Assembly (NCBI RefSeq): GCF_006385175.1
Contig: NZ_VFIY01000014.1
Coordinates: 62,001-126,000, forward strand
Direction: 5' to 3'
DNA from: Emcibacter nanhaiensis
GTDB lineage: Bacteria > Pseudomonadota > Alphaproteobacteria > Sphingomonadales > Emcibacteraceae
DNA length: 64,000 nucleotides
Part shown: positions 9,726 to 56,263 of the stretch, in pieces
Layout of the letters: each line of letters opens with the position of its first letter
How positions within the stretch are numbered: the first letter of the stretch is position 1
The notes under the pieces: model-generated
What the model saw: only the letters and a program-made list of their open reading frames with translations
What the model was told of the DNA's origin: nothing
Database searches by the model: none
Made by a program: the position numbers and the translations under genes

Positions 9726-9730
9726 GATCT

Positions 9731-11062: not shown

Positions 11063-11072
11063 TTCACCCTCC

Positions 11073-11816
11073 TCACCACGGGCGATCCGAGGAAGACAGA
11101 GACGCACTGCCCATGAAACTCTTCCTCAATGCCCGTGCTTCCTCTTTTTCCACAAGCTTGCGGGCTTCCTCCAGAGATCGCGCCCGAAAGTAGAGCACGC
11201 TTGCCTGTTGTCCTTTCTCCAGTTGCTGAAGCTGAAAAAGACTGATCCGGTTTGCCGCCTGAGAGGTCTGCAAGAGCCCCTCCGCACTTTCAGAGGACTG
11301 GGACAGTTGCTGCCGGTATTCCCTGTTCTCCTCAAGGGAGGACATCAGAACCGCCTGGGCTTTGAGGCTGTCTTCAAGAGCTGACCGGGACAAACCCCAA
11401 CGCTCCCGCGCCCGCTGTAAATCTCCGTCTTTTTCGGAATATTGATCCGCATATAACCTGTCGAATGTCCGTTCAAGGGCGTCAACGTTCCGGCTCAGCC
11501 CCTCCGCGGAACTGATGAGCAGGTTGATCCTCTGCAGGCTTTGCACAAGATCCGGCAAAGACGCCTGTTCCAAGGGAGACAGGTTTTTAGCCATATTCTC
11601 CAGCATACGTACCTGATTTTGCAGACCGGTCAGCTGGTTGTTTATGGTTATCAGGCTTCGGCTGGCGATCAGCAGGTTCTGGGCATGATTGGCGGGATCA
11701 TAAACCACGTCTCCCAAGCCAAACAAAGCCCTGGCAGGATCAGCCATCAAGAGCGTCATCAGGCAGATCATAAAGGCACCATTTCGGACATGGCGGGTTT
11801 TACGTTTTTCCATCAT
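11073..11816 (-). CDS. trbJ: Conjugal transfer protein TrbJ (VirB5 family)
   Basis: A signal peptide ends near ADPARA (about residue 30). The mature part is largely helical with the motif LFGLGDVVYDPANHAQN typical of TrbJ and long amphipathic helices. It is a periplasmic or pilus-tip component. The start is one of two adjacent ATGs (11816/11813) behind AAGGAGA, overlapping the end of trbE by 17 bases. Confidence 0.9.
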   Translation of the reverse strand: MMEKRKTRHVRNGAFMICLMTLLMADPARALFGLGDVVYDPANHAQNLLIASRSLITINNQLTGLQNQVRMLENMAKNLSPLEQASLPDLVQSLQRINLLISSAEGLSRNVDALERTFDRLYADQYSEKDGDLQRARERWGLSRSALEDSLKAQAVLMSSLEENREYRQQLSQSSESAEGLLQTSQAANRISLFQLQQLEKGQQASVLYFRARSLEEARKLVEKEEARALRKSFMGSASLSSSDRPW

Positions 11817-14256: not shown

Positions 14257-14264
14257 ATTTTCTC

Positions 14265-14528
14265 TCAGCTGTAATAGTCCTTGTGGCGCAAATGCCTGAG
14301 GCCGGTTTCCAGAAAATCAGGGTCCCGTCTTGTCAACCAGACCGCGAGCGACTGACCGGTAAACCAGAGAAGCAGTCCAGCGAGCCACAATTGCAGGCCC
14401 AGGCCCATCGCCGCCGCCAGCGTCCCGATTACGATGGTTACCGATCTTCGCGCGCCTGCCAGCAACAGAGGCTCGGTCAGCGACCGATGAAGGGGCACTT
14501 CCAATCCAATGGGACGATTGTCCGTCAC
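14265..14528 (-). CDS. trbD: Conjugal transfer protein TrbD (VirB3 family)
   Basis: This small membrane protein (87 residues) has two closely spaced hydrophobic segments (about 28-62) and a conserved N-terminal PLHRSLTEP. In many systems VirB3 is fused to VirB4; here it is separate and directly precedes it. Its start overlaps the stop of trbC by four bases. Confidence 0.9.
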   Translation of the reverse strand: MTDNRPIGLEVPLHRSLTEPLLLAGARRSVTIVIGTLAAAMGLGLQLWLAGLLLWFTGQSLAVWLTRRDPDFLETGLRHLRHKDYYS

Positions 14529-14884
14529 AGGATCACCGCTCCTCCCCCGAAGGAGAAAAAGGCCAGAAAGAAACTGGTGGCGGCGAAAGCGATACTCAGG
14601 CCGAACACAATCTGCACCAGACGCCTGAAGCCGCCGCCCGTATCTCCAAACGCCAAAGTCAGCCCGGTGATGGTGATGATAATCACCGCTACGATCCGGG
14701 CCACAGGCCCTTCGATGCTGTCCAGGATCGCCTGGAGCGGCGCTTCCCAGGGCATGTTGGTCCCCGCGGCCTCGGCCACTGAAGCGTTGAGCAAGAGGAT
14801 CAGAGATCCGGCGGCAAGCTGTATTCGGGTCCTGAATTTTTTGAATATTTCAGCTCTGAAAACGGATTGTGTTCTGTCAAACAT
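14525..14884 (-). CDS. trbC: Pilin TrbC (VirB2 family)
   Basis: A long signal peptide ends near VAEAA, and two hydrophobic helices follow, as in VirB2/TrbC prepilins. In the RP4 system TrbC is cyclised after processing by the TraF peptidase, and a traF gene is present upstream in this operon. The start at 14884 is chosen because AAAGGAGATAGTCAG precedes it; a longer frame to 15040 lies inside trbB and is a shadow. Confidence 0.92.
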   Translation of the reverse strand: MFDRTQSVFRAEIFKKFRTRIQLAAGSLILLLNASVAEAAGTNMPWEAPLQAILDSIEGPVARIVAVIIITITGLTLAFGDTGGGFRRLVQIVFGLSIAFAATSFFLAFFSFGGGAVIL

Positions 14885-14888
14885 CTGA

Positions 14889-15914
14889 CTATCTCCTTTT
14901 GTCGGGCATTGGATTTGCCGGGTGAAGTTTCTCAATGCGGTAATCGTCACGGGTGAATCCCTTGACCTGAATGATTTCCCGAAGCCGTCGTGCTCCGCCG
15001 CGTCCTTCCAGGAACAACACCAGATCGACAGCCTGGGCAATCAGCCTGCAGGGCACCTGCTCGGAGACTTCCTGGATAAGCTGCTCAAAACGGTACAGGG
15101 CTCCACTGGCTGAGTTGGCATGGACTGTCGTGATGCCCCCGGGATGACCCGTATTCCAGGCTTTCAAAAGTTCAAGCGCTTCCCCTCCCCGTACTTCGCC
15201 CACAACGATCCGGTCAGGTCGAAGACGCAGAGAACTCTGAACCAGATCGCGCAGTCCCGCGACGCCCGGTCGGGTCTTCAAAAACATGCTGTTGGTGGCG
15301 GACGACCGTAACTCGCGCGTATCTTCCAAAATGATCAAACGCTCCTCCCTGTGCGTGAGCTCCGCGAGCAGCGCATTTGCAAAGGTCGTTTTTCCCGATC
15401 CTGTGCCCCCGGCAACCACCATATTCAGCCTCGCCTCCAGCGCATGACGAATGGCTTTCAGTTGCCAGGGTTCAATGATCCTGTCCTGAAGGTATTTCTG
15501 GAGATCCGGTTGAAACAATGTTGGCTTGCGAATGACGAAGGCGGGCATCGAGACCACAGGGGGAAGAAGCCCCTCAAAGCGTACCCCCGCGCCCTCCAGC
15601 AGCGGAATTTCGGTACTGACAAAAGGCGAGTTGCGATGAGCCACCCGTTCATCAAGGCTGGCAACAAGTCGAATTATCCGCTCCCGCATGGCCGCAGAGA
15701 GAGTATGATCGGTCGCACAACATCCTTTGTCTGCACTGTCGATCCAGAGTGAACCATCCGGATTGACCAGAATATCCGTCACTCCGTCGTCCTGAAGCGC
15801 CGCCAGAATCTCCGTCCCGAGAGCCGTCTTCAGCATAGCGGTCTTGCGGCTGGGGCCTGCGCCATTCCCGGGCTCCGGATCATTTAAATATTTAACCTTA
15901 TGCGCCTCCTGCAT
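14889..15914 (-). CDS. trbB: Conjugal transfer ATPase TrbB (VirB11 family)
   Basis: A hexameric secretion ATPase of 341 residues. Walker A is VAGGTGSGKTTFANALL (about 165-181), Walker B is LIILEDT, and the Asp/His boxes are present (RPDRIVVGEVRGGEA, GHPGGITTVHANS). It switches between pilus assembly and DNA transfer. The start overlaps the preceding CopG-like gene by 17 bases. Confidence 0.95.
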   Translation of the reverse strand: MQEAHKVKYLNDPEPGNGAGPSRKTAMLKTALGTEILAALQDDGVTDILVNPDGSLWIDSADKGCCATDHTLSAAMRERIIRLVASLDERVAHRNSPFVSTEIPLLEGAGVRFEGLLPPVVSMPAFVIRKPTLFQPDLQKYLQDRIIEPWQLKAIRHALEARLNMVVAGGTGSGKTTFANALLAELTHREERLIILEDTRELRSSATNSMFLKTRPGVAGLRDLVQSSLRLRPDRIVVGEVRGGEALELLKAWNTGHPGGITTVHANSASGALYRFEQLIQEVSEQVPCRLIAQAVDLVLFLEGRGGARRLREIIQVKGFTRDDYRIEKLHPANPMPDKRR

Positions 15915-16359
15915 GATCCGCCTCCCCGGGATTCAGGGAAAATAGATCTGTCTCCTCCCCCTGCAACTGCTCCATGACGCGCGCCGTGAGGCCATTTCCT
16001 TCGGCGAGGCGACGCCCGAGAAAGGTCACGAACTCCTCAAACCTCTGCTGTCCCTTGGCACTGGCTGCTTCCCTGTCCTCCACCGGCAAAGGCGGTGTCA
16101 TGGTGAGGAAATAGCGAATAAAAAGCGCCTTGGTTTCCAGAAGAATGGTCAGATCCCGCTCCAGTCTGCCAAACTGTCGCCCTAGCCGATCCAAACGGCG
16201 CAGGATCAGTTCCTCGCTCCCGGGAAGACCGCCTTCCTCAAGATATTGCCCAAGCGCGAGTTCAACCAGGCCGGACCTCGAAACACCGCTTTTGGCAGCG
16301 AGCCTGTCAACCTTACGAAGTTCTTCCGGTTGCACGTAAACATTGATGCGGGGTTTCAT
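15898..16359 (-). CDS. CopG-like ribbon-helix-helix protein of Trb operons
   Basis: The N-terminus (MKPRINVYVQPEELRKVDRL) is a ribbon-helix-helix DNA-binding motif; the remaining 100 residues are helical. Such a gene between traG and trbB is a standing feature of Trb-type integrative elements. It may repress the operon or be a relaxosome accessory protein; the sequence does not decide. It overlaps traG by four bases and trbB by 17. Confidence 0.82.
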   Translation of the reverse strand: MKPRINVYVQPEELRKVDRLAAKSGVSRSGLVELALGQYLEEGGLPGSEELILRRLDRLGRQFGRLERDLTILLETKALFIRYFLTMTPPLPVEDREAASAKGQQRFEEFVTFLGRRLAEGNGLTARVMEQLQGEETDLFSLNPGEADHAGGA

Positions 16360-18470
16360 GAGCGTCCTCCCTTGTCGGCCGGACCGGAGTTTTTATCGCC
16401 TGACCTCTTCACAAAAGACGTCCCTCCGCTGAATGGCAGGTTGAACTGTCCGCCGTTGGAGGTCGATTTCCGCGGGAAATGTCGGTCCAGGCAGAGATCC
16501 GGAAATTCAAACCCGACATCCCCGGCATCGTCTTTTCCCTTTGAGTTTCCAGGGTCATCCTCCCCCGCCGGGCCTGTGCAAGACTCCTTTCGGTTCTCCC
16601 GTCCCTCTACAGAAAGTTTGTCGGACACCGATGCTTCCAGGCCTTTCCAGTCATTTTGCGGCTCGCTGTCATTTTGTGGCTCGCTGTCATCGTCCGGGTT
16701 CTGACAACAGGGCGGTAGAGATCTCTCTATGAAATTTCTGTCGGTAAAATATTTGATCTTGTTTGCCAGTACCGGTTTCCGTCCGGAAATCTGGATAATC
16801 TCCTGACCCTCAGGCAGTTGCATGATTTCCCCGGGGGTCAGCAACTGTCGCGCCGTCTCCTGACTGGAAACCATGACATGACCGAGCCAGGGCGCCAAAC
16901 GGTGGCCGGCGTAATTACGCTGATGCCGCCGTTCCGTCATGCTGCCGAGGCTGTCCGAAACCCTCTTCGCGGTTCTCTCGTCGTTGGTGGCAAAGGCGAT
17001 CCGGATATGGCAGTTGTCCAGAATTGCGCTGTTTTCGCCATAAGCTTTGACGATCTGGTTTAAACTCTGGGAGATCATGAAGGCTCTAATTCCGTATCCG
17101 GCAAGATAGGCCAGCGCCGTCTCGAAAAATTCGAGCCGCCCCAATGCGGGAAATTCATCCAGCATCAGAAGCAGTCGACTGGTTGTTGACCAGCGGCTCT
17201 TTCTTTTGCCCGGGAATTTGAAAATTCCGAAGATCCCACGGCTGGCGGGCGATGCTGTCGCAGTCTTCGTCGCCAGATCCACTTCCTCGGTCAGGCGGCG
17301 ACCAATCTGATTAAGGATCAACCTGATCAGCGGCCTTGTCCGGCTCAAATCCCCTGGCGGGACGACCAGATACAGGGAGACCGGTTTTCCCGTACGGACC
17401 AGGTCTCTGAGCACAAAAGATGACCGAGCCGTGACCTTACTGACCACCGGGTCCCGATAGAGCGTAAGAAAACTAAGCGCCGTGCTGAGCACACCGCTTC
17501 GCTCATTTTCGGTCTTGTTCAGGAGTTCTCGGGCCACAGCGGCCACAACCGGGTGAACGCCGGGTTCCTCACCACCTTGCCCCAGATGATCCGTATGCAG
17601 CATTTTCTCCAGAGTGGCTTCAAACGGGCAGGAAGGATCGCTGAGAATTTCCGCCACCCGGGCAAGAGTCTTCTCCTTCTCCGCATAAAGGACATGCAGA
17701 ATAACGCCCACCAGAAGAGAGTAGCTTGTCTTTTCCCAATGATTGCGACGATCCAGCACACCCTCCGGATCAACAAGGATGTCCGCAATATTCTGCACAT
17801 CACGCACCTCATTCTGCCCCTTGCGGACTTCCATGAGCGGGTTGAAACAGGCACTCTCCGGATCTGTCGGATTAAAATAAAGACATCTTGAAAAGCGTGA
17901 TCTCCAGCCGGAGGTCAGCCGCCAGTTCTCCCCCTTGAGATCATGGACAACCACACTTCCCAGCCAGGTCAAAAGCGTCGGCACGACCAGACCCACGCCT
18001 TTGCCCGCCCGGGTTGGCGCAAAAGCCATGACATGCTCCGGACCATCGTGACGCAGATAAGCCCCGGCGAACCCGCCAAGGACGACACCTTTCTTTCTGA
18101 AAAAACCTGATCTCTTCAACTGCTTTTTGGTTGCCCAGCGTGAAGACCCAAATGTCGTCGCATTCTTCTTTTCCCGGGCGCGCCAAAGAGACCCCAGAAT
18201 GGCGGCAAAAACCCCGATCAAGCCACCAGAGGCCGCAAGGGTCCCGGCTTTAAGAAACACTATTGGCGCATAGCTGCCATAGGCGTACCACCATTCAAAA
18301 AGCCTCCAGGGGAGATACACAGGAATGGAAAACAACTGGACCCATGGCTCCCCCAGTCTCATCTGATATCCCAGCATATGTGCCGCCCACTGGGTGGCAG
18401 ACCATATCGTGAGGAGCACGATGAGAAAGGTCAGGAGTATCTGTCCGAGCAGGATTTTTGTAGGTGTCAT
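16356..18470 (-). CDS. traG: Coupling protein TraG (VirD4 family)
   Basis: This type IV secretion coupling ATPase of 704 residues has N-terminal membrane helices (about 8-28 and 72-92), Walker A FAPTRAGKGVGLVVPTLLTW (about 150) and Walker B LLLMLDEFPALGRLEF. The C-terminal 120 residues are polar and repetitive (DDDSEPQNDSEPQND) and are likely disordered. It docks the relaxase-DNA complex onto the Trb channel. It is preceded by a gap of 324 bases from the relaxase gene. Confidence 0.95.
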   Translation of the reverse strand: MTPTKILLGQILLTFLIVLLTIWSATQWAAHMLGYQMRLGEPWVQLFSIPVYLPWRLFEWWYAYGSYAPIVFLKAGTLAASGGLIGVFAAILGSLWRAREKKNATTFGSSRWATKKQLKRSGFFRKKGVVLGGFAGAYLRHDGPEHVMAFAPTRAGKGVGLVVPTLLTWLGSVVVHDLKGENWRLTSGWRSRFSRCLYFNPTDPESACFNPLMEVRKGQNEVRDVQNIADILVDPEGVLDRRNHWEKTSYSLLVGVILHVLYAEKEKTLARVAEILSDPSCPFEATLEKMLHTDHLGQGGEEPGVHPVVAAVARELLNKTENERSGVLSTALSFLTLYRDPVVSKVTARSSFVLRDLVRTGKPVSLYLVVPPGDLSRTRPLIRLILNQIGRRLTEEVDLATKTATASPASRGIFGIFKFPGKRKSRWSTTSRLLLMLDEFPALGRLEFFETALAYLAGYGIRAFMISQSLNQIVKAYGENSAILDNCHIRIAFATNDERTAKRVSDSLGSMTERRHQRNYAGHRLAPWLGHVMVSSQETARQLLTPGEIMQLPEGQEIIQISGRKPVLANKIKYFTDRNFIERSLPPCCQNPDDDSEPQNDSEPQNDWKGLEASVSDKLSVEGRENRKESCTGPAGEDDPGNSKGKDDAGDVGFEFPDLCLDRHFPRKSTSNGGQFNLPFSGGTSFVKRSGDKNSGPADKGGRS

Positions 18471-18794: not shown

Positions 18795-20558
18795 CTATTT
18801 GATCTGTCGTCCGCTCAAGGCGCGACCGAACGCCCTGCCGATCTCCTTGCCCCGATATTTTTCAAGGCCAGGCGTCCAGGGGACAAAGCTGAAGTGGTCT
18901 TTTCCTTCAATAAAAGCATAGACGCCACTGACGAGATGAAGTCTTTTCACATATATGCCTTTTGCGGGTGAGGCTCTGCTTTGAGAAACCCAGACCTTTC
19001 CATTTTCCCCGGAGATCTTCTCCGCGACCCTTTCCAGCTCCCGCCGGGTCAGAAGTCTGGAAATCCGTTTCTTCGCATCTCCGGGAGGGTGCTCCTCCAG
19101 GTCACTTTCGGAGACAAAGTTCATTTGGATAAGCCATTGTCGGCGCGCCCCCAGCATCTGTCCCACGCGCTTGCCAAATCCCCTGCCAGATGCGGGAAAT
19201 CTCTCTTTCGCCAGCAGCAAACGATCCAGCCAGCCATATCCCTCCGCCTCCACAAGCTTCTCCAGCGGAACAGGTGAAGCGATTGTCAGATGCACGGGAA
19301 GGTCCCTGCTTCTTTTTTCAGACAAGGCATCCGGTTTATTGTTCAGGGCCGGTTTTACGGTCACGATCATCCCCTGGCGTAAGGTCGTCGGGTAGACAGA
19401 CTTTCCTCTGTCCACATACCAGCGGCAACCGTCAACGCCGTCCAGGATCAGATATCTTCTGTCCTCCAGTTCCTCGGACAGTCCAAGGCTCGACACCTCT
19501 CCGGTAATGCCGTCCCGGTGGCGTGCCGGATCAAATATGGATACATTCTGTTCCAAAGGTGACAAACCGGACCTTGTCATGTCCCGGTGCAGTGTTTTGA
19601 TTATATCACCCCGCTCTCCAAGACGTTTGAGAATGTCCGTAAAATTATCCTCCACGCGCCAGATATTACCCGGCAGTGAATGAGCGAGACCAAGCTTCTC
19701 CAGTTTCTTCAAGCGCTCTGTGAGAAATGATTTCTGGCGACCGCCAGCCTCCGACAGGACCAGACCATCCTCACGCTTTTTCCCAAGCCGGGAAATCATG
19801 CGATCCAGATCGGTGAGGCGTTCCAAGCCGATCTGACGACGGCGCTGCTGCAGGATCTCGAGTTCGGTCCTCGGCCCAAGCTCCAGGCTCATCAGTTCGG
19901 AGGCCCGCCGACGCATGCCGTAAGACATATAGTTTCGGGCAATCACAAGATCCTCTCCCGCCTGATCCACGCCACGCAGGATCACATGTGTATGGGGATG
20001 CGCCGTGTCAAAGTGATCAACCGCCACCCAGTCCAGCGAGGTATGGAGGTCCTTTTCCATCACCCCCATTAATTGCCTGATAAACGGTTTCAAATCCTCG
20101 AGCCTGGTCGCATCTTCCGGGGAAACAATAAAACGAAACTGATGGCGGTCACCGCGGCATCTGTCCCGAAATTCGCCCAGCTCAATATTTTCTCTTTTTT
20201 TGTCATAGGCGCCAGCTTCCAGACCGTCGCGCCCGACACCTTCGCGTTGGATATAGCTTAAGTGTGTGGACGCCCGGGAAAACCCCTTGCCGGAGAGACG
20301 TACAATACGGCTTTTGATGATGACCCGGCGCGCATATGGTTGCGTTCCGCTTGCCCGGTTTCGATATGTCATCATCTTCGAGGCCCAATGGCCCCGACCG
20401 ATCCGGTCCCCCTGGAAACCTGATTTTTTCTTTTGCCCTTGCGGCCAATCAAGACCATGAGAAAGAGACCTTACTTTCCCCCTGATTTTTTCACGGAAAC
20501 TCCGCCCCCTGTCCCGCGGCGGGCCCGGTCGCGGCAAAAATTCCCGATCATCCGTCAT
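18795..20558 (-). CDS. Relaxase, VirD2-like with DUF3363-type C-terminus
   Basis: A 587-residue relaxase of the kind found in Trb integrative elements. The catalytic half contains SRASTHLSYIQREG near residue 95 and the metal-binding histidine motif DHFDTAHPHTHVILRG near 205. The nicking tyrosine is probably one of those in SYIQREG or upstream. The C-terminal half matches the large domain of these relaxases and contains the RGMIVTVKP-like conserved stretch (as QGMIVTVKPA). It nicks oriT and pilots the strand. The start overlaps traF by 11 bases. Confidence 0.9.
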   Translation of the reverse strand: MTDDREFLPRPGPPRDRGRSFREKIRGKVRSLSHGLDWPQGQKKKSGFQGDRIGRGHWASKMMTYRNRASGTQPYARRVIIKSRIVRLSGKGFSRASTHLSYIQREGVGRDGLEAGAYDKKRENIELGEFRDRCRGDRHQFRFIVSPEDATRLEDLKPFIRQLMGVMEKDLHTSLDWVAVDHFDTAHPHTHVILRGVDQAGEDLVIARNYMSYGMRRRASELMSLELGPRTELEILQQRRRQIGLERLTDLDRMISRLGKKREDGLVLSEAGGRQKSFLTERLKKLEKLGLAHSLPGNIWRVEDNFTDILKRLGERGDIIKTLHRDMTRSGLSPLEQNVSIFDPARHRDGITGEVSSLGLSEELEDRRYLILDGVDGCRWYVDRGKSVYPTTLRQGMIVTVKPALNNKPDALSEKRSRDLPVHLTIASPVPLEKLVEAEGYGWLDRLLLAKERFPASGRGFGKRVGQMLGARRQWLIQMNFVSESDLEEHPPGDAKKRISRLLTRRELERVAEKISGENGKVWVSQSRASPAKGIYVKRLHLVSGVYAFIEGKDHFSFVPWTPGLEKYRGKEIGRAFGRALSGRQIK

Positions 20559-21105
20559 GGGGGACTTCCGATTGTTGTGCAGGCCAGACCAGCACAGCCC
20601 TTCCGGAAATATCCCTCTTCTTCACCGGGCCGAAATATCGACTGTCAAAAGAAAGGTCTGACGACGGTCCCAATAGAAAATATTCCTCCGGAAAAAGTCT
20701 TTGACAGCCTGTCCAGACAGGTAATGGACGACCCGCCCCATCCATTCTCAACTGGGTTGCAATCAGAGTGCCGTCCAGAAAAACCCTTCTGTTTTTCACA
20801 CAGACCTGGTCACCCTCGACACCGATAATCTGTTTCAGCAGGGGGATATCTGGAGGGAGATAGCGCCTGTCCGCAAGCATCTTTCTAAAGGCCTCAGGCA
20901 CCGGCAACACAACATTGTCTTTCTTCGCGAACTCATCCGCGGGAAAAATAATATAGAAGCCCTTCGGCATGCTTTCCGACGGATTGTAGAGCAGCCGCGG
21001 CCTGATCCAGCTTGCGCTCCCCAAAAGAGAAACAGCCATAGCAACGAGAAGGCCGTATCTCCAGGCTGATCGTTCCTGAAAATCTCTGCTCCTCGACGAC
21101 AACAT
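20548..21105 (-). CDS. traF: Conjugal transfer peptidase TraF (S26 signal peptidase family)
   Basis: One N-terminal membrane helix (about 18-36) precedes a type I signal-peptidase fold. The catalytic serine lies in NPSESMPKGFY and the lysine in PLLKQIIGVEGD; the C-terminal box SFDSRYFGPV is present. RP4 TraF processes and cyclises the TrbC pilin. Its ATG overlaps the stop of the upstream helix-turn-helix gene in TGATG. Confidence 0.92.
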   Translation of the reverse strand: MLSSRSRDFQERSAWRYGLLVAMAVSLLGSASWIRPRLLYNPSESMPKGFYIIFPADEFAKKDNVVLPVPEAFRKMLADRRYLPPDIPLLKQIIGVEGDQVCVKNRRVFLDGTLIATQLRMDGAGRPLPVWTGCQRLFPEEYFLLGPSSDLSFDSRYFGPVKKRDISGRAVLVWPAQQSEVPHDG

Positions 21106-21362
21106 CAGCGTTCAGAGACTAGAGAGTGGTCGACCGCATTGTCATTGGTCGAGGCTTGGCCATGCTCGTCCGACCAGGTCTTTAAGTCATCGACAGTATA
21201 GACAACACGACGCCCGTGCTTCCGATAGCGGGGACCTTCTCCGCTCATACGCATCTTACTGAGAGTTATCGGACTAATTCGCAGATAGGCCGCGCTTTCT
21301 TCACTGGTCAGATAAACCGGACGGCTGTCTTCCAGCGCCTTTATACGCCTATTCCTTTCCAT
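21105..21362 (-). CDS. AlpA/excisionase-like helix-turn-helix protein, first gene of the transfer operon
   Basis: This 85-residue protein carries a MerR/AlpA-type winged helix (LTSEESAAYLRISPITLSKM, then GPRYRKHGRRVVYTVDDLKTW). ATG 21362 is chosen because GAGGAGG lies upstream. Genes of this type commonly open Trb operons and may regulate them or act at oriT. A perfect lux box sits 58 bases upstream, so this gene and everything behind it is probably AHL-controlled. Confidence 0.82.
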   Translation of the reverse strand: MERNRRIKALEDSRPVYLTSEESAAYLRISPITLSKMRMSGEGPRYRKHGRRVVYTVDDLKTWSDEHGQASTNDNAVDHSLVSER

Positions 21363-21419
21363 GAGTTCCTCCTCTGCAAGGATCAAAACTCTGTAGAATA
21401 AGAGGGGAAATCAGGAAAT

Positions 21420-21441
21420 AACCTGTCCGGTTAAACAGGTT
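21420..21441. promoter_or_regulatory. lux box upstream of the transfer operon
   Basis: AACCTGT-N8-ACAGGTT, a perfect 22-bp inverted repeat with exactly the same arms and spacing as the site before luxI (22643-22664). It lies 58 bases upstream of the first gene of the leftward transfer operon, a position suited to activation by the AHL-bound LuxR encoded nearby. Confidence 0.85.
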
Positions 21442-21458
21442 GACTTGGGAGGGAACAA

Positions 21459-21478
21459 GCCACCCCTCACGGGGTGGC
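21459..21478. other. Strong hairpin between the two divergent promoters
   Basis: GCCACCCC-TCAC-GGGGTGGC pairs perfectly. There is no T-run on either side, so it may insulate the divergent transfer and luxR transcription units rather than terminate by the classical mechanism. Confidence 0.4.
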
Positions 21479-21639
21479 CTGGCTTCATAACTTGTGTCGA
21501 GGATCGTCCTCAAACATCCAAAAGCTATGCTTCCTCCGACAAACTGTCAAATCAATTCCCGCAACATTGTGGAACATGCAGTTTCAATAATATTTGACTC
21601 AACCTATGGTTTAATATAAACGTAACAATTCTGCAAAAT

Positions 21640-21656
21640 ATATATTTCGAATATAT
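21640..21656. promoter_or_regulatory. 7-3-7 palindrome, site 1 (upstream of luxR)
   Basis: ATATATT-TCG-AATATAT. The same palindrome with other spacers occurs at 24044-24060 and 24866-24882, and a variant at 27547-27563. Probably an operator of one of the two GntR-type regulators in the cluster. Confidence 0.6.
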
Positions 21657-21764
21657 TGGGAAGGCTTTAAGAGGCATCTTCAAAAACTGCCGGTATCTAG
21701 AAGGCAGATAATTCTTCAGGGCAAAGGGAGCAATATAGACATCACAGGTCGTGGGGGTACGATC

Positions 21765-22472
21765 ATGATTGATTTTTCTCTTATTGAAGAATTCGTATAT
21801 CTCATAGAACAAACTCAAAACCTGAAAAGCTTGACAGACTTGTTTGGCTCTATCATTCGGCAGTTTGGCTTCGACAAACATACCTGCCTTTCTTCCGTCG
21901 ACCTCAATCATCCTCCTGCCAATTCCATTCTCATTTACGAATTTCCGGAGATCTGGGTAAATCGCTACAAGGAGAAGGAATATTTTAAGCACGACCTTGT
22001 CCTTAAAAGTATTTATCGGGAGGCGAAGCCCCTCAAGTGGCTCGATCTGGAGGAGATGGACGACATCAATCAAAAGATATTTTATGAAGCCCAACAATTC
22101 GGCATCCGTAATGGCATGACGATCCCCCTGATGATGCCCGGGCATTACCCCTGTACAATCAATATCGCGGGCGAGTTTGTAGATGTGGATCCCCGCGCCT
22201 ATTCATCCCTTCACCTTCTCGCCGTCCACTATTTCAATCAGCTCCTGCTTCTGGGCCAATCAGATTTTGCGCCCCCGGCCCTTACCCCAAGACAAAAGGA
22301 ATGTCTGTACTGGGCGGCCCAGGGCAAAAGCGACAGTGATATAGCAGAAATCCTTGCCATTCGCGCCCGCACCGTAAATTACCACATTGAAAAAGTCCGC
22401 GAGAAATTTGACGTGCGGACCCGCAGCCAAAGCATCGCACTGGCAATCTCCTGCGGCCTGCTTCTGCCATAA
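21765..22472 (+). CDS. luxR: LuxR-family AHL-responsive regulator
   Basis: The protein has 235 residues. The N-terminal autoinducer-binding domain (about 15-165) retains the family pattern W..RY...Y..HD, then PLKW and GIRNGMTIPL; the usual Pro after the Asp is Leu. The C-terminal LuxR helix-turn-helix (about 172-232; LTPRQKECLYWAAQGKSDSDIAE) is intact. It is expected to bind an acyl-homoserine lactone made by the next-door synthase and to act at the two lux boxes. There is a 245-base gap before luxI. Transcription runs away from the transfer operon. Confidence 0.92.
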   Translation: MIDFSLIEEFVYLIEQTQNLKSLTDLFGSIIRQFGFDKHTCLSSVDLNHPPANSILIYEFPEIWVNRYKEKEYFKHDLVLKSIYREAKPLKWLDLEEMDDINQKIFYEAQQFGIRNGMTIPLMMPGHYPCTINIAGEFVDVDPRAYSSLHLLAVHYFNQLLLLGQSDFAPPALTPRQKECLYWAAQGKSDSDIAEILAIRARTVNYHIEKVREKFDVRTRSQSIALAISCGLLLP

Positions 22473-22642
22473 CAGTCAGCCCTTTCAGGTAATGGAAAAA
22501 CATCTTTTTCAGGTAGTGCCCACACTGTCGGCCCGGACGTCTCGCGACGACAAGCAACCCCGATTTTTCACATAAAACTCCATTCCTCTTTTCGCCAGAC
22601 TGAACCTCCAGCCGGTTACCCTCTCCCCTGCTGATTGTCGTC

Positions 22643-22664
22643 AACCTGTCCCGCTATACAGGTT
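22643..22664. promoter_or_regulatory. lux box upstream of luxI
   Basis: AACCTGT-CCCGCTAT-ACAGGTT, a perfect inverted repeat 54 bases upstream of the luxI start. It implies the usual positive feedback on signal synthesis. Confidence 0.85.
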
Positions 22665-22717: not shown

Positions 22718-23365
22718 ATGATTACCATCATCAATAAAGACAACAGACATCTTCACAAACCGGAACTGGATGAAATGTTCAGGCAAAGACACAGAGTCTT
22801 TGTTCAGGAACTTGGCTGGTCCCTTCCCCTGGCGCACCAGGGGAGAGAAAAGGACCAGTTCGACAGGGAAGATACCCTCTATATTCTGCTTCGCGACAAG
22901 TGGGGGAATTTGATAGCGTCAAAACGCCTGATCCCCACAGTGAGACCTCATCTCCTGTCTGACATCTTCCCTCACTTGGTTGAACAGGAAGTCCCGCGAG
23001 CAGCCAGTATCTGGGAAAGTTCCAGGACCTGTGTTCCCCAGGAACACAGACGATGTGGGGTGACAAAAAAACTTTTTCTGGCCATGATGGAAACCGCACT
23101 TCTGATGGGTATTGAAAAAATTACCTTTGTTTCTTCAACGTCTGTTTATCCGATAATCCTGGATGCGGGCTGGACCATTCAGCCCCTTGGTCTCCCTCAA
23201 AAAGATCTGGACGGTGAAGAAATTATCGCCGCGGCCATTGAAGTCAGTCCAAGCTCGCTTCGACAGATGCGCCGGAGATATTCCAGCACCCATGTGGCGA
23301 TACTCTCCCTGCCCCTGGACTATCATATGCAGCCAGTTCAACCTGTTCGGAGCAGTAATGCATAA
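22718..23365 (+). CDS. luxI: Acyl-homoserine-lactone synthase, LuxI family
   Basis: The protein has 215 residues and all family hallmarks: RHRVFVQELGW near residue 25, D..D before the second strand (DQFDRED), ASKRLIPT near 70, and WESSR near 102. It makes an AHL from S-adenosylmethionine and an acyl carrier; the chain type cannot be predicted here. Its last codons overlap the start of the following gntR gene by eight bases, so that regulator is translated from the AHL-induced message. Confidence 0.95.
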   Translation: MITIINKDNRHLHKPELDEMFRQRHRVFVQELGWSLPLAHQGREKDQFDREDTLYILLRDKWGNLIASKRLIPTVRPHLLSDIFPHLVEQEVPRAASIWESSRTCVPQEHRRCGVTKKLFLAMMETALLMGIEKITFVSSTSVYPIILDAGWTIQPLGLPQKDLDGEEIIAAAIEVSPSSLRQMRRRYSSTHVAILSLPLDYHMQPVQPVRSSNA

Positions 23366-24044
23366 ACCCTCCAAACATCCTGTTTTTGACAGACTATACA
23401 GGCGGCTCAAATATGAGCTTTTGAATTTCAAATTTGCCCCCCACATCCGTCTGAATCTGGAGCAGATAGCTGACAATTATGACGTCAGCACGATCCCCGT
23501 TCGCGAGGTCTGCAGGCGGTTGAACGCAGAGGGGTTGCTCCACCATATTCCCGGGCGCGGCTATTTCTACAAACAAAAGACACTGGAAGACTTTCAAAAT
23601 CGACAGCAATTGACACTCTGGATTCTCCTGCTCTCCCTGGACAGGGCGGTACGAGCCGAAAAGGCCAGAAAACTCTTCGCCCGACAAATGCCTGTCACCC
23701 CCCTGCTGAGAAAAACCCAAAACACCCAGGAAGCGGAAATCCTTGTGGATACAACCGAGGTCTTATTTGGCCAGATTGCCCTGTTCGCGGACAACGCGCT
23801 TCTCCCGCCCCTCATAAAGCAGCAGAATGATCATCTGCGTGTGATCCGTCTCCGGGCATGCCTCCATTCTCCTGACCTGGCGGGTGAGCTAACTGAAATG
23901 TTGAAGTGTAATGCCGCCAAAGACTTCAGAAAACTGAGAAAGAGACTATTGCGATATCATGTCACGGAAAAGCGGCTTTTGCCCTCTGTCCTGCGGGAAC
24001 TCTCGAGACCCTCGCGATGCCCGGATATCAGCACCGGAAAATGA
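23358..24044 (+). CDS. GntR-type regulator 1, coupled to luxI
   Basis: This 228-residue protein has an N-terminal winged helix-turn-helix of the GntR type (about 12-75; LEQIADNYDVSTIPVREVCR, then GLLHHIPGRGYFY). A helical C-terminal domain of the FadR type, poorly conserved by eye, follows. ATG 23358 (GGAG upstream, overlap with luxI) is preferred over a long in-frame extension that would lie inside luxI. GntR-type genes accompany lasso clusters with isopeptidases in alphaproteobacteria. The gene's stop codon touches palindrome site 2. Confidence 0.82.
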   Translation: MHKPSKHPVFDRLYRRLKYELLNFKFAPHIRLNLEQIADNYDVSTIPVREVCRRLNAEGLLHHIPGRGYFYKQKTLEDFQNRQQLTLWILLLSLDRAVRAEKARKLFARQMPVTPLLRKTQNTQEAEILVDTTEVLFGQIALFADNALLPPLIKQQNDHLRVIRLRACLHSPDLAGELTEMLKCNAAKDFRKLRKRLLRYHVTEKRLLPSVLRELSRPSRCPDISTGK

Positions 24045-24060
24045 TATATTCACAATATAT
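24044..24060. promoter_or_regulatory. 7-3-7 palindrome, site 2 (between the two gntR genes)
   Basis: ATATATT-CAC-AATATAT, starting at the last base of gntR1 and 150 bases ahead of the gntR2 start. Candidate GntR operator, perhaps autoregulatory. Confidence 0.6.
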
Positions 24061-24209: not shown

Positions 24210-24851
24210 ATGATAAAGCCAACGGAACAACATCATATTTTCTGTGTCCTGAAACGGCTCCTCCTGGAAGGAGAAATTCGCCCGGGAAGTCACATCACGC
24301 CAGCTGCGCTGGCCGATCAGTTCTTTGTCAGCATCACCCCCGTCAGGGAAGCCCTGTTGCAATTAACCAGTGAGGGACTGGTTAACTTCCTCCCCAACAG
24401 CGGTTTTTTCGCCCGGGAATTATGCCTCCCTGAAAATACAGACCTGTTAGAGGCGCAATCTCTCCTGATAGAAGCCATTCTTGCAGGTCAACAAAGCGCC
24501 AGCGAGGAAGCCCCTTTGAGCTATCCCCCGCCCCACAGAACAGCCGAAAAGCCGGAAAACCGCGATGGCAAAACCATAAACGAAGACATGCATTACCTTT
24601 ATCTCACCATTGCCTCCCTGTCCGGCAACGGGGAATGTCTGCGCTGGCTCAATTCAATAAATGAACGCTGCTGGCTCGTCAGCCGACGGCAACTGGAATA
24701 TTTCCCGGAACTCCACAGCAAGTTTATCGATCTTGAGAAATATTATCTCCAGAGAGAGATGGACAAATTGCCTTCAGCCTATCATGACTTCCAATTGAGC
24801 CGTCTCTCCCGCCTTCCCGATCTCTACAAGAAATTACAGGTCTCGGACTGA
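24210..24851 (+). CDS. GntR-type regulator 2
   Basis: This 213-residue protein has a clear GntR winged helix (about 8-70; ITPAALADQFFVSITPVREAL, GLVNFLPNSGFFAREL). The C-terminal region is helical with a poorly conserved effector domain. ATG 24210 is used because the longer frame from 24102 adds residues with no similarity to the family. It is paralogous to the preceding gene only in the DNA-binding part. Site 3 lies 15 bases after its stop, in front of the lasso B gene. Confidence 0.8.
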   Translation: MIKPTEQHHIFCVLKRLLLEGEIRPGSHITPAALADQFFVSITPVREALLQLTSEGLVNFLPNSGFFARELCLPENTDLLEAQSLLIEAILAGQQSASEEAPLSYPPPHRTAEKPENRDGKTINEDMHYLYLTIASLSGNGECLRWLNSINERCWLVSRRQLEYFPELHSKFIDLEKYYLQREMDKLPSAYHDFQLSRLSRLPDLYKKLQVSD

Positions 24852-24865
24852 TGCGCCCCGGGATC

Positions 24866-24882
24866 ATATATTCTGAATATAT
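24866..24882. promoter_or_regulatory. 7-3-7 palindrome, site 3 (promoter of the lasso biosynthesis genes)
   Basis: ATATATT-CTG-AATATAT, 75 bases ahead of the lasso B start. Expected to control the B-C transcript. Confidence 0.62.
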
Positions 24883-24956: not shown

Positions 24957-25661
24957 ATGACCGAAGAATTCCACATCGCCGGACATATCTTTCCCGCCCT
25001 GACGGATCAGCATCTGGTCCTGCTGGACATTCATGCCGACAGCTATATCCTCGCCGGTCCGGACGAGAAAAAAGTCCTTGAAAATATCATAAAGAATACG
25101 GCCCCACAGCCGGGCAAGACCCTGACCGGTCTGCTCGAGCAAAATATTCTCACCACCGACCTGGACTGTGCGTTAAGAACAGACGGGCTGAGATCCCCTC
25201 TCTCCGTTGAGTATCTCCCCGCCCAGAATGAACGAATGAGATACAGCCTGGACCAGCAACGCACGGAAAAGCCGGTGAACATACTCAAGCTGTTATGGGC
25301 TTCTGCGCAAACTCTGGTGATGCGCAGATTTCTGCCGTTCGATAAAATGCTGGCGGTGGTTGGAAAACGAAAACAAAAAAGCCGTCACGACACAGAAGAA
25401 AACAGCTCTTCGCAGGAGATCGAAGATCTGCTGGATTTCTTCCGACGTTATCGGGTTCTCTTCTACACTCCAAAAGATCATTGCCTTTTTGACAGCCTGT
25501 GCCTGATCAATTTCCTGGCCCTGTTCAATATTTTTCCGGACTGGGTCTTTGCCGTCAGAATGGGACCTTTCGAGGCTCACTGCTGGGTCCAGAATAAACA
25601 GGATCTCTATAACGACACCCTGGCCCACTGCGGCAATTTCGCCCCAATACTCCTGTTGTGA
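24957..25661 (+). CDS. Lasso peptide biosynthesis B protein (fused B1-B2)
   Basis: The protein has 234 residues. The first 80 or so form a PqqD-like RiPP recognition element that binds the leader (LVLLDIHADSYILAGPDEKKVL). The C-terminal part (about 150-234) is the transglutaminase-like leader peptidase, with the cysteine in DHCLFDSL (C176), the histidine in FEAHCWV (H208) and an Asp shortly after. This fused B is usual in proteobacterial lasso clusters. It cuts the leader after the Thr-x position so that the cyclase can close the ring. Only 12 bases separate it from the cyclase gene. A second candidate start further upstream (24882) lacks a site. Confidence 0.92.
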   Translation: MTEEFHIAGHIFPALTDQHLVLLDIHADSYILAGPDEKKVLENIIKNTAPQPGKTLTGLLEQNILTTDLDCALRTDGLRSPLSVEYLPAQNERMRYSLDQQRTEKPVNILKLLWASAQTLVMRRFLPFDKMLAVVGKRKQKSRHDTEENSSSQEIEDLLDFFRRYRVLFYTPKDHCLFDSLCLINFLALFNIFPDWVFAVRMGPFEAHCWVQNKQDLYNDTLAHCGNFAPILLL

Positions 25662-25673
25662 AGGAGAAAACCT

Positions 25674-27497
25674 GTGCTGCGCTTCATCGCCATCCTGTGG
25701 AATGCACATGACCCCGCCGCCAGCAGCGCAGCACAGACACAGATTGACCGAACTCTCCAAACTCCCTGGACAGCCCTTCTTCAGGAGAATGGCCTCTGCG
25801 TGATGACGAGGAAATCAAAACATGACTATTACAGACATTATCACTTGTCCGACCCCTCCGGTCCCGCGAAAGGCGTAATTCTGGGACGGCTCTTCTCGAA
25901 GTGTCAAAATTCTGAAGAGAATGCTTCAAAGGAGGAAGCCCCTCTCATCTCACTCTCCCGGCTCCTGGAGACAGAAGGAAAGTCGCTAACGGACAATTAT
26001 TGGGGCAATTACATTGCTTTCATTTCCCGGGGATCAAATAATTATGTTCAGCTTGACCCGATGGGTACTTTCCCCTGCTTTATGACCCGAAGCTCCAACG
26101 TCACAACCATTTCCTCCACAATCCCGGACCTCCTTACGGCGACCGAAAGACCTTATTCCATAAACTGCCTGGTGATAGGGAGATACCTGAGATACGGCCT
26201 TGAGCGTTCCCAAACAGGATTAAGTGAGATCGGGAAAGTTCTCCCCGGGCAGTTCCTGAAATTTTCTCCCTTTGGCGTCACCATCAGTTACCCCTGGACC
26301 CCGCTCGACTATTGCAACCGGGGAGAGGACATTGATCCGTCCAGGGCAAGCGTGACGCTCCGACAGCTTCTCTGTTCAACAACTCAAGCACTGGCGGCGC
26401 CCCACAAAAAAATACTCCTGAAAATCGGGGGACTGGATTCCAGCTTGCTGTTGTCCTGTCTTTCGCACACACGGTCCGCAGATGATCTCTCCGCCATCAC
26501 CATATACCAGGATTGCCCTATGGGGGATGAACGCCGCTTCGTTCGGGAAGCAACAGGGAAGGTCTCGATCCCTCTCCTGGAATATCCCGAAACCGCGTCC
26601 AGGCTCGATGAGGACCAACTTTCCGCGGCACCCCTGACAGCCCTTCCCCTTTACTATGCGCAACACGGCCAGTTTGAAAAGCGCCTGACCGAGATCATCG
26701 AAGAAGAAAATTTTGATGCGATTTTCACCGGACATGCCGGCGATGAAATTCTCTATGCCGCCGCCACAAGTTATGGCGCAATGGACTATCTCTATAACCG
26801 CCTGTTCCCGATAAAGCTGTTCAGCTTCATGATGGAGGCCGCCCGGATGCAAAACAGATCCGTCTGGAGCCTGTTTCCTGAAATTCTCCGCAGTCGCTTT
26901 AACAAGCAGCCCTGGAGTTTCTACGCACAGCATGGTCATGGGAAAAGCAGGCTTCTTGATCCGGACCTCCAGGACCAGATCAGGCCCGGGAAAGACACAC
27001 ACCCCTGGCTCACCCGGGAGGCATCCATTCCACCGGGGAAGTATTACCATCTCTTCCCCCTGACCAAGGGGCTTTACGCACTGGAGTTTATGGGGCATGC
27101 GGAAGATCCGCCTCCCGTCATCATGCCCTATCTTTCCCAGCCCTTTGTTGAATATTGCCTAAGCCTGCCAAGCTGGCGCCTGACCTCTGACGGCATGGAC
27201 AGGGGATTGGCCCGCCTGGCCTTCAAAAACTTTGTTCCGGACAATATTCTGAAACGACGATCCAAATTCTCTTCCGCCTACTATCTTCGCACCCTGGTCG
27301 AATTGAATTTTGACTTTATTCGGGACACGCTGATGGATGGCCTGCTGGTGCAGAACAGGATCATCCATCGACAGTCCCTAGAGCAGCTTCTGTCGAAAGA
27401 GCAAGATACGGACACCCGGGATCAGGCCTGGCTTATAAATTTTCTGAACACCGAAATCTGGGCCAGAAAATGGGAAAATATGGGCCGCTTCCGTTGA
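25674..27497 (+). CDS. Lasso cyclase C (asparagine-synthetase-like)
   Basis: The protein has 607 residues. An N-terminal glutaminase-like fold without the nucleophilic Cys2 is followed by an ATP-binding synthetase domain with the P-loop variant KIGGLDSSLLLSCL (about 245) and the GHAGDEILYA motif (about 350). It adenylates the Asp/Glu side chain of the core peptide and joins it to the freed N-terminus, making the lasso ring. The GTG start follows AAGGAG. The precursor gene follows 152 bases later under its own palindrome. Confidence 0.93.
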   Translation: MLRFIAILWNAHDPAASSAAQTQIDRTLQTPWTALLQENGLCVMTRKSKHDYYRHYHLSDPSGPAKGVILGRLFSKCQNSEENASKEEAPLISLSRLLETEGKSLTDNYWGNYIAFISRGSNNYVQLDPMGTFPCFMTRSSNVTTISSTIPDLLTATERPYSINCLVIGRYLRYGLERSQTGLSEIGKVLPGQFLKFSPFGVTISYPWTPLDYCNRGEDIDPSRASVTLRQLLCSTTQALAAPHKKILLKIGGLDSSLLLSCLSHTRSADDLSAITIYQDCPMGDERRFVREATGKVSIPLLEYPETASRLDEDQLSAAPLTALPLYYAQHGQFEKRLTEIIEEENFDAIFTGHAGDEILYAAATSYGAMDYLYNRLFPIKLFSFMMEAARMQNRSVWSLFPEILRSRFNKQPWSFYAQHGHGKSRLLDPDLQDQIRPGKDTHPWLTREASIPPGKYYHLFPLTKGLYALEFMGHAEDPPPVIMPYLSQPFVEYCLSLPSWRLTSDGMDRGLARLAFKNFVPDNILKRRSKFSSAYYLRTLVELNFDFIRDTLMDGLLVQNRIIHRQSLEQLLSKEQDTDTRDQAWLINFLNTEIWARKWENMGRFR

Positions 27498-27818: not shown

Positions 27819-29981
27819 CTATTGGTCCTCGTTGAGGTTTTTCCTCATCTCTCTCCAGCGCCTGTATTGTTTCTGCTTTACCGGATCAGGATCTTCCTTT
27901 CCCTGCAGCCAGAATTTAAACCAGTCGATATGTCGCTTATAGACCGCTTGTCGCTGGGCCGGCTGCCATTTCACATGATAGGCGTCCGGGAAAATATACA
28001 TCTCAACCGGCTTACCGGCTTCCCTGAGCAAAGTATAATTCTGCATGGACAGCTGAAACTCCCGGTCCGCCGCCTGAACCAGAAGGGGTGTATTGATTTT
28101 CCCGGCATTTAATCCCAGGGAAAAAGCGGCGCTCTCCCCAACATAAGGCTTCCCCCCGAACAGGAAGTTCTTATATTTCCGGTTGATGGAAAGATTATGC
28201 ACATAATAGGCCATTGGATTAGAGCTGATGTAAGCCGCTGACGCCGCGGCAAAACGATCAGTAAATAATATTTCCTGTTCTACTGTACTGGCCCCATGGC
28301 TAAGCCCCGTAATACCGATATGTGCGGGATCGACAAGGCCACGCTCAACAAGTTTGTCCAGTATCCTGTTCAGGGCGATCAGCGTTCCCTGGTCAAAAAG
28401 AAGATAAGACCAGTGTTTCGCACTCATCTCGAGAAAATCGCCGGTCCGGGCGTAATTTTCCAGGTCGTCCGTCATATCGAAACTGAGCACCATAATTCCC
28501 TGTTGCACCAGAGCATGAATGGGGACTTCATCTCCCGTCCCCCCTCTCAGGAATCCCGCCGAGCGATATTGAACCACCACCAGAGGATAGGCCCTTCCCT
28601 TCTCATAGTTCGCCGGATAGACCAGATGCCCATAGGCGGTATTGCCCATGCCATCATCGGAAAGCAGTTTCTCGATTTTGGTAAATTTCATTTCTCTGAA
28701 TGCGGGATTTTCATCCACTAGCAGCTCTTTTTGTCCAGTCGCCAGATCAATGGAGACCAATTTTGCCGGAGAGGTCCAGCCCTCTTCCTTACAGATCATT
28801 TTCTGTTCACGACGCCTGCAGTCCTGAAGCAACTCATCCCCCCGGACAATGGTTCTGAGTTTTCCTGTCTCAGGGCTCCAGGCGTATAAGGCCATCAGAC
28901 TGTGATGAGATCCGTCGCGTCGCTGAAAGATCACTTTATTCAATTCCGGTGACCACCAGAATTTTCTCAATATCCGGCCCCGATAGCCCAGACAGGCCTC
29001 ATGGGCGCAAGTGATCCCCCTTCCCCCCACGACAACTTCCAGCCTGGAAAGAGGCGCAAATCCCTTAAAAATTTCAGGGTTCACATTTCTGAACTGAATT
29101 TTCGGGTCAACAGAGGACGCCTTGCCAACTTCTTCGACCTGCCCAGTATCCTTCGAAGTCTCAATAAAGGCAGTGGAGTTGCCAAAATAATTCTCGGTTT
29201 CTTTGTCAGTCACTATGCGTTCCTTGCCGCTCGTCACATCCAATATCCGCACGCGCAACTCACAGTGCCGGTCAGACTTCATTAAGTCCTCATATCCTGA
29301 CGAGGTCTGCGACGCTTTGCAGGTTGGCCAGATGGACCGGACATCACTGGAATAGACCGGACTAATATCGTCCTGGACAAGAACCCCCTCGCGGTTTTCT
29401 TTATTTACCTCTCGTTCCACATCCGCCCGGTCTCTCCCCACCGTGAAATAAAGCAGCCTGCCATCCCTGGAAAATTTCAAATTTTCCACATCGGCAGTGC
29501 TATGCGTGAGTTGGACCACCTTCCCTCCTTCTCTGTCCACGCGCCAGATTTGCACCGCGTCATCCATCTTCCGGGTAAAGGCTATCCAGCGACTGTCCGG
29601 AGACCAGGCCGCAGGTGTACCGACAAATTCCCCTACTTTCATACCGTCCGGGAATACCGGCAGATAAAACTCTCCGCCATCGGCAAGGAACCGTCCCCCT
29701 TGCCGCTCCTGATCTGTCTCCGGAAAAATATCCATTATCTTCCAGGCCAGTTTATAGGTGTTGGCTTCAGGATCGGCCTGCACAATCTGATAAGCCACAG
29801 ACTTCCCGTCCGGCGAAACCTCATAGGTCTTGATGTCTCTGATGGTCAGCAGGTCTTCTGTTGTCACAGCACGGGCCAGGCTCAAGTCAGGAAAGATCAG
29901 GGTCAGCAATAGAAGTATCTGCACCCCGTAAATCTTCCTTGCGAAAGAGCTCTTTCTTAAAATCTTCATTCCGATAGGCAT
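27819..29981 (-). CDS. Lasso peptide isopeptidase (S9 prolyl-oligopeptidase family, AtxE-like)
   Basis: The 720-residue protein starts with a signal peptide (cleavage near LSLARA). A seven-bladed propeller (about 40-430) is followed by an alpha/beta hydrolase domain with Ser561 in GLSHGAST, Asp639 in QAADREF and His669 in DAYHVKW. AtxE-type enzymes, always found beside lasso genes in this group, cut the isopeptide bond and linearise the cluster's own lasso peptide. The periplasmic location and the neighbouring TonB receptor suggest import and breakdown of the peptide. The start has AGGAG eight bases upstream. It is convergent with the precursor gene. Confidence 0.9.
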   Translation of the reverse strand: MPIGMKILRKSSFARKIYGVQILLLLTLIFPDLSLARAVTTEDLLTIRDIKTYEVSPDGKSVAYQIVQADPEANTYKLAWKIMDIFPETDQERQGGRFLADGGEFYLPVFPDGMKVGEFVGTPAAWSPDSRWIAFTRKMDDAVQIWRVDREGGKVVQLTHSTADVENLKFSRDGRLLYFTVGRDRADVEREVNKENREGVLVQDDISPVYSSDVRSIWPTCKASQTSSGYEDLMKSDRHCELRVRILDVTSGKERIVTDKETENYFGNSTAFIETSKDTGQVEEVGKASSVDPKIQFRNVNPEIFKGFAPLSRLEVVVGGRGITCAHEACLGYRGRILRKFWWSPELNKVIFQRRDGSHHSLMALYAWSPETGKLRTIVRGDELLQDCRRREQKMICKEEGWTSPAKLVSIDLATGQKELLVDENPAFREMKFTKIEKLLSDDGMGNTAYGHLVYPANYEKGRAYPLVVVQYRSAGFLRGGTGDEVPIHALVQQGIMVLSFDMTDDLENYARTGDFLEMSAKHWSYLLFDQGTLIALNRILDKLVERGLVDPAHIGITGLSHGASTVEQEILFTDRFAAASAAYISSNPMAYYVHNLSINRKYKNFLFGGKPYVGESAAFSLGLNAGKINTPLLVQAADREFQLSMQNYTLLREAGKPVEMYIFPDAYHVKWQPAQRQAVYKRHIDWFKFWLQGKEDPDPVKQKQYRRWREMRKNLNEDQ

Positions 29982-32923: not shown

Positions 32924-33263
32924 TATTCCTTCCCTTCTTTTTTATGTTGAAAATGTGAAGCCCTCGAGCTCCACATCCTGTTTATCGAGGGGAAAAAGAA
33001 TGACGATTTTGGGAACAGCTTAAAAAGCACCAACGAACTGAAATTTCTGTTCTTTTTTATTCTTACTCGCAGGTTTCTGCAGATCTTTCCCATAAAACCT
33101 TTAGTCGTCGCACCCAGAAATCCGGACTGCGTACAGCGGTTTCTGCAATTGAGGAAATTCGGGGAGAATTCATAATAAACTCAGGGAAGCTCCTACTCCA
33201 TGATCAACGCAGAGTGACGGAACTGAATTTTCCCGGAATCACTTCACTAAACGGGGGTATGGC
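32924..33263. promoter_or_regulatory. Divergent promoter region, receptor / FecI-like sigma factor
   Basis: This 340-base non-coding region separates the leftward receptor gene from the rightward sigma factor gene. No clear operator or lux box is visible. By analogy with FecI systems the receptor promoter should be the target of the sigma factor. Confidence 0.4.
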
Positions 33264-33806
33264 TTGTCGGAACAGAAATTTTCTGAGGATTGCGTGCAGC
33301 CGCCGGACTTCGACAGTCTCTACCGGACCTGGCTTTCTCCCCTGGTCTCATTTCTTGAGAGACGGGGCGCCGCAGGGCCGGACGTGGACGATCTCGCCCA
33401 GAATATTTTCCTTCGCTTTTTTAAACTCACACGCTCCGGCAAATATTCTCCAGAACCGCCCTTCCTGTTCCACATCGCAAGATATGCCCTGAAAGATCAC
33501 TTCAGGACGGAAGCACACCGACATACGAAAGATCATCTTCCTTTGGAGAATTTACCTGAAGGTAAAATTCCCCGCGACCGGCTGTCGCCGGACCGTGCGG
33601 TCGCTTCCCGGCAGGACTTGCGACGGCTTATGGAACAGATTGACCGACTGCCCGATGACGCACGACAGGTTCTTTTGCTGTATCGGTTCAGGGGGCTCCC
33701 CAAACGACAGATCGCCAGCCAACTTGGCCTGCCCCTCAAACGCATAAATCTTCTGCTGGAGCAGGCATTTTGCATCCTGATCGACGAGATGGAGGATGAC
33801 CTGTGA
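33264..33806 (+). CDS. FecI-type ECF sigma factor
   Basis: The protein has 180 residues: sigma-70 region 2 (about 15-85; DVDDLAQNIFLRFF) and region 4 (about 118-172; LPDDARQVLLLYRFRGLPKRQIA). The start is TTG with a G-rich site upstream. It partners with the overlapping FecR gene and the divergent STN-containing receptor to form a surface-signalling circuit that should raise receptor expression when the ligand is bound. Confidence 0.88.
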   Translation: MSEQKFSEDCVQPPDFDSLYRTWLSPLVSFLERRGAAGPDVDDLAQNIFLRFFKLTRSGKYSPEPPFLFHIARYALKDHFRTEAHRHTKDHLPLENLPEGKIPRDRLSPDRAVASRQDLRRLMEQIDRLPDDARQVLLLYRFRGLPKRQIASQLGLPLKRINLLLEQAFCILIDEMEDDL

Positions 33807-56217: not shown

Positions 56218-56232
56218 TTTTTCACCTCTGTC

Positions 56233-56263
56233 TTTGCGCACTTTTTGCGCACTTTTTGCGCAC
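56233..56263. repeat. Three 11-bp direct repeats upstream of the integrase gene (right arm sites)
   Basis: TTTGCGCAC occurs at 56233, 56244 and 56255 with an 11-base period, two of them extended to TTTTTGCGCAC. The same 11-mer lies in the left end at 4194-4204. Likely integrase arm-binding sites that may also repress int. Confidence 0.5.

Follow-up and report, generated by a model that had tools for sequence, protein, structure and literature searches.

Our analysis indicates that the alphaproteobacterium Emcibacter nanhaiensis (Emcibacteraceae) carries an integrative element of the ICEMlSym type in which a LuxR/LuxI pair probably controls excision and transfer directly, the FseA relay being missing and a lux box standing in its place. 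The window referred to here is the whole stretch analysed, 64,000 nucleotides of contig NZ_VFIY01000014.1, numbered from its first letter. ICEMlSym-R7A serves as a model of how quorum sensing controls an integrative element, and the informative point of the present case appears to be a shortened cascade, with LuxR predicted to act directly on rdfS. The features on which this reading rests are:

21420..21441, no strand, lux box 1, upstream of rdfS; exact, centre 68.5 bp before the rdfS ATG
22643..22664, no strand, lux box 2, upstream of luxI; exact, centre 64.5 bp before the luxI ATG
21395..21400, minus strand, possible -10 element TATTCT of the rdfS promoter; chosen by eye, it would centre lux box 1 near -42.5
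21105..21362, minus strand, rdfS, excision factor; HTH_17, match to the solved RdfS 8dgl (E=3.2e-12)
21765..22472, plus strand, luxR; Autoind_bind and GerE domains
22718..23365, plus strand, luxI, AHL synthase; Autoind_synth, matches solved AHL synthases

Sequence reading and exact motif search found that AACCTGTCCGGTTAAACAGGTT (lux box 1) and AACCTGTCCCGCTATACAGGTT (lux box 2) are both perfect copies of AACCTGT-N8-ACAGGTT, as a preliminary description of this DNA had claimed, and their places before the leftward transfer operon and before luxI are confirmed. The genome (3,963,826 bases searched) holds just these two exact copies, where a uniform-base estimate for 14 fixed bases predicts about 0.015, and a chance origin of two exact copies in 3.96 Mb was therefore ruled out. 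Across 396 Sphingomonadales genomes the exact box was found in three, twice in E. nanhaiensis and once each in G015 and G101, where the identical box lies directly upstream of a luxI homologue. A wider lux regulon was considered and rejected, given that most of the near-matches checked are hairpins or coding sequence. The contexts of six sites, a subset of all two-mismatch sites in the genome, comprise three hairpin sequences beside serine-recombinase genes (C1, C15:8236 and C19), two in-frame coding sequences of MOBF-type relaxases (C4:170766 and C15:38568) and one unassigned intergenic site (C4:170361).

The tra boxes of R7A are centred 69 bp upstream of traI1 and 67 bp upstream of traI2-msi172-msi171 (PMC5882170), so that working boxes at 69 and 67 bp can be set against 68.5 and 64.5 bp for the lux boxes described here. 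The distance to rdfS takes the ATG at 21362 as the likely start of that gene; the open-reading-frame tool also lists an upstream TTG at 21386. The TATTCT at 21395-21400 was absent from the output of promoter consensus scans. Taken together, sequence, uniqueness and geometry give good support to the proposal that one LuxR acting through identical boxes would control conjugation, and the predicted AHL control of the transfer operon is well supported.

Leftward from lux box 1, domain and model searches identified the following genes of the transfer operon, which continues from rdfS:

20548..21105, minus strand, traF, transfer signal peptidase; Peptidase_S26, the TraF_Ti model scoring under its cut-off
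18795..20558, minus strand, rlxS, relaxase; DUF3363, RlxS model 542.7 bits, under the cut-off of 850
16356..18470, minus strand, traG, coupling protein; IncP-type TraG model 1012.8 bits, cut-off 674
15898..16359, minus strand, copG-family gene; RHH_1
6767..15914, minus strand, trb block, ending at trbI
14889-15914, minus strand, trbB
11800-14256, minus strand, trbE
9731-11107, minus strand, trbL
8952-9725, minus strand, trbF-like
7981-8955, minus strand, trbG-like
6767-7984, minus strand, trbI

The genes trbC, D and J were assigned by position alone. The gene content is as previously described, with the addition of traG and the copG-family gene between the relaxase and trbB; a 324-bp gap (18471-18794) separates rlxS from traG, and this gap could carry its own promoter, making read-through into trb conditional. 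The presence of rdfS-traF-rlxS with traG and trb genes places the element in the ICEMlSym type. The preliminary description had singled out a helix-turn-helix gene followed by traF, relaxase and trb genes as the unusual trait; the order is indeed present, but the gene in question is rdfS, and ICEMlSym-type elements normally have their genes in the order rdfS-traF-rlxS, which is therefore not the distinguishing feature. What distinguishes the element is the putative control site on rdfS itself, a lux box with no recognisable FseA between. Adjoining the trbI end of the operon (4792-6709), a helix-turn-helix gene overlaps a HipA-like gene.

The R7A reports (PMC11963761, PMC10359603) describe a cascade in which TraR activates fseA, and FseA then activates rdfS through an FseA box. 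The Mesorhizobium japonicum element (also described in PMC5882170) resembles ours in its rdfS-traF-rlxS order and trb genes, in an AHL regulator whose boxes have their centres some 65-70 bp upstream of the targets, and in a synthase under its own box. It differs in that TraR acts there on fseA and FseA on rdfS, whereas the box is on rdfS here, no FseA box was found before rdfS, and no FseA or DUF2285 (QseM-like) protein was detected in the E. nanhaiensis genome.

A domain search of that genome gave no match to the two FseA domains (DUF6499 plus DUF2285), searched for as PF10074 and PF20109; in the joint search of 20 genomes, PF10074 was present in 15 and PF20109 in 16. Of 32 genomes within the family, 4 carry PF10074. 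A sensitive profile made from the FseA domains of relatives, run with filters off, found nothing credible in the window or the own-genome pieces searched; a divergent FseA could evade the profiles. The FseA-type inverted hexamers that precede rdfS in many relatives were not found upstream of rdfS here, where the lux box stands instead. Among 46 rdfS-traF entries (one locus, L077, being entered twice), FseA lies within 1.5 kb upstream in 26 and elsewhere in the locus in 8, and 12 show none in the stretch compared, the window counted among these and one of them (L091, from G044) having FseA just beyond that stretch. The local lack of FseA is thus not peculiar to the window, since 11 other entries also have none near rdfS. 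The window was the sole entry with an exact lux box no more than 330 bp from rdfS; the remaining entries show at least 3 of 12 mismatches to the lux box near rdfS.

The nearest relative found, Emcibacter sp. OFTM17 (G060 C11; JAJFIQ010000019), shares the arrangement of a luxR that diverges from a leftward rdfS-traF-rlxS operon across a lux-like box, and gave the best TraG match (65%). Unlike our element, it has fseA after the box and ahead of rdfS, and its rdfS is preceded by an FseA-type inverted repeat. There, luxR is followed by a lux-like box that has 2 mismatches and lies about 65 bp upstream of fseA, and then by fseA, rdfS, traF and rlxS; because this order includes fseA, loss of the gene would be the simplest history for our element, with few relatives behind it. 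G072, which lacks a PF10074 match and has luxR beside rdfS, was weighed as a second direct case but left out of the count: its palindrome differs, its RlxS match is short, a separate contig gives a weak PF20109 match, and the genome is 85% complete. In both G072 (L081, about 5959-5980) and G060 (L098, about 7937-7958), a conserved dyad whose core is GTTCCACTACCAGAAC lies between luxR and the leftward operon.

We propose that AHL-bound LuxR would bind the two identical lux boxes. At the luxI box it would switch on luxI-gntR1 with positive feedback, and at the rdfS promoter, in the place where an FseA box would be, it would switch on rdfS-traF-rlxS and, by read-through from rlxS, traG-copG-trb. 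RdfS may then drive integrase-mediated excision, with RlxS, TraG and Trb carrying out transfer. Binding, activation, read-through and excision are predictions of this scheme, and so is the view that FseA was lost and not absent from the start.

In the Ti plasmid, AHL controls tra/trb genes through an inverted-repeat box, and no excision factor is known to be involved. The comparison with TraR/TraI drawn in the preliminary description is right in outline, this AHL control through an inverted-repeat box being the point of likeness. It does not extend to the proteins, which score far under the curated Ti-type cut-offs (LuxR 53.1 bits against TraR, cut-off 250; LuxI 76.2 and 73 against TraI, cut-offs 250 and 292). 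Autoinducer-binding and GerE domains, an autoinducer synthase and a lux box before luxI together point to a LuxR/LuxI pair. The TraM antiactivator domain PF09228 had no match in the genome, but likewise none in any control genome.

Five further autoinducer-binding proteins are encoded in the genome. One of the two LuxR/LuxI pairs of E. nanhaiensis, at C15:81167-82636, has the related box AACCTGCCTACCTAGGCAGGTC ahead of its luxI, and cross-talk is possible. A LuxR-like protein in the window (53795-54718) has an autoinducer-binding domain and no GerE match; its homologues at C1:8658 and C15:34261 are 70-74% identical and lie near large serine-recombinase genes.

To the right of luxI, the window continues into a lasso-peptide region, in the order luxR, luxI, gntR1, gntR2, lasso B, lasso C and then the isopeptidase, TonB receptor, ECF sigma factor and FecR:

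23358..24044, plus strand, gntR1; GntR, overlaps the end of luxI
24210..24851, plus strand, gntR2; GntR
21640..21656, no strand, second palindrome upstream of luxR; 1 mismatch
24044..24060, no strand, second palindrome upstream of gntR2; 1 mismatch
24866..24882, no strand, second palindrome upstream of lassoB; exact
24957..25661, plus strand, lasso-peptide B protein; lasso_biosyn_B2 60.4 bits, cut-off 33
25674..27497, plus strand, lasso-peptide C protein (cyclase-like); Asn_synthase, cyclase models under cut-off
27819..29981, minus strand, lasso-peptide isopeptidase; Atxe2 family 578.6 bits, cut-off 400
30173..34870, TonB receptor (minus), ECF sigma factor (plus) and FecR (plus) of the lasso region; domain searches

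The B2 protein and the isopeptidase both score over their curated cut-offs, which identifies a lasso-peptide cluster, and the luxI box heads luxI-gntR together with this cluster. Only unconvincing candidates for the precursor gene A were found in the window; in G101, a candidate precursor, MNKRENRKQPTLIELGSITKKTKGAVGIVSELGQPLKRF, lies between gntR and lasso B (L094, around 5348-5430). The second palindrome, ATATATTCNGAATATAT, occurs at up to one mismatch in three copies in the whole genome, all within the luxR-gntR2-lassoB module, and GntR would be the natural candidate to bind it.

The module was surveyed by a profile scan of loci and seven extensions, the loci having been chosen for luxI or rdfS hits and not for lasso genes. 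The complete set of rdfS, luxR, luxI, gntR, lasso B and lasso C is present in the window, G030 (L083), G062 (L084), G124 (L087), G044 (L091) and G056 (L085 with extension L218), and G003 (L082) has the same genes except for gntR, which was not matched. Counting the window, seven loci thus combine lasso B and C with both rdfS and luxI, a figure that is a recurrence and not a rate, the loci being non-random and some stretches shortened. The four genes rdfS, luxR, luxI and gntR were found in G131 (L086, L219) and G170 (L092, L220), with no lasso match in the extension, and in G184 (L088), where the stretch scanned ends inside gntR. In G039 (L090, L221), rdfS, luxR, luxI, FecR, TonB and isopeptidase were matched but neither lasso B nor lasso C; G060 carries rdfS, luxR, isopeptidase and TonB together at one locus (L098, L222), with luxI on a separate contig (L097). 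Smaller sets occur in G072 (L081, L223; rdfS, luxR, luxI and TonB), in G185 (L089) and G080 (L093), which have just rdfS, luxR and luxI, in G015 (L096) and G027 (L100), with luxRI alone, and in G047 (L099), with rdfS alone. Finally, G101 (L094) and G055 (L095) have luxRI and gntR along with lasso genes, and gave no rdfS match in the stretch scanned. Other Sphingomonadales rdfS elements, too, carry the lasso-peptide cluster next to luxRI.

An unlikely alternative is that luxRI serves the lasso-peptide cluster and the rdfS box is incidental or inherited, with little effect on transfer. Such a role would fit G055 and G101, in which luxRI adjoins lasso genes and the stretch scanned gave no rdfS match, and the overlap of gntR1 with luxI; against it, the rdfS box is an exact copy at the spacing of activating boxes, and rdfS, lacking FseA, would be left with no known activator. 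It seems similarly improbable that the rdfS box is in fact governed by another LuxR, whether that of the C15 pair or the LuxR-like protein at 53795. The five further autoinducer-binding proteins and the related site of the C15 pair make this conceivable, but the local luxR is flanked by both exact boxes and the C15 site departs from them at 3 of 14 arm positions.

LuxR-family repressors exist, and sequence alone does not give the sign of the regulation, so that LuxR might in principle repress at the rdfS box until AHL lifts the repression, as EsaR does. We consider this very unlikely, since the expected -10 lies downstream of the box, whose spacing is that of activating tra boxes, and the geometry is the same at luxI. 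Direct activation of rdfS by LuxR is the reading we prefer. A keyword search of open-licence papers, mostly of titles and abstracts, turned up no account of LuxR controlling rdfS directly, nor of an element combining luxRI with lasso genes.

PMC10359603 proposes that the multi-layer restraint of FseA in R7A guards cells from over-expression. An element apparently without FseA would be a natural test of the purpose of the relay. The lasso-peptide cluster beside luxRI suggests, in addition, that such elements may couple competition to transfer. More tentatively, the window could hold a single circuit, in which LuxR would drive rdfS and luxI-gntR1, GntR at the second palindrome would control luxR, gntR2 and lassoB, and signal and peptide together would decide the exit of the element. 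If so, the luxRI-lasso module would recur on Sphingomonadales rdfS elements as a cargo-and-control cassette.

A possible end of the element lies further to the right:

55243..56310, minus strand, tyrosine integrase; Phage_integrase, beside tRNA-Leu, possible element end
56373-56459, tRNA-Leu; tRNA search

No repeat matching the tRNA-Leu region, as expected of an attachment site, was found in C14:2001-166000. A possible defence island at 42373-47458 encodes an E2-like protein, a nucleotide cyclase, a WYL protein, a cyclic-nucleotide-binding protein and a Pycsar effector transmembrane domain.
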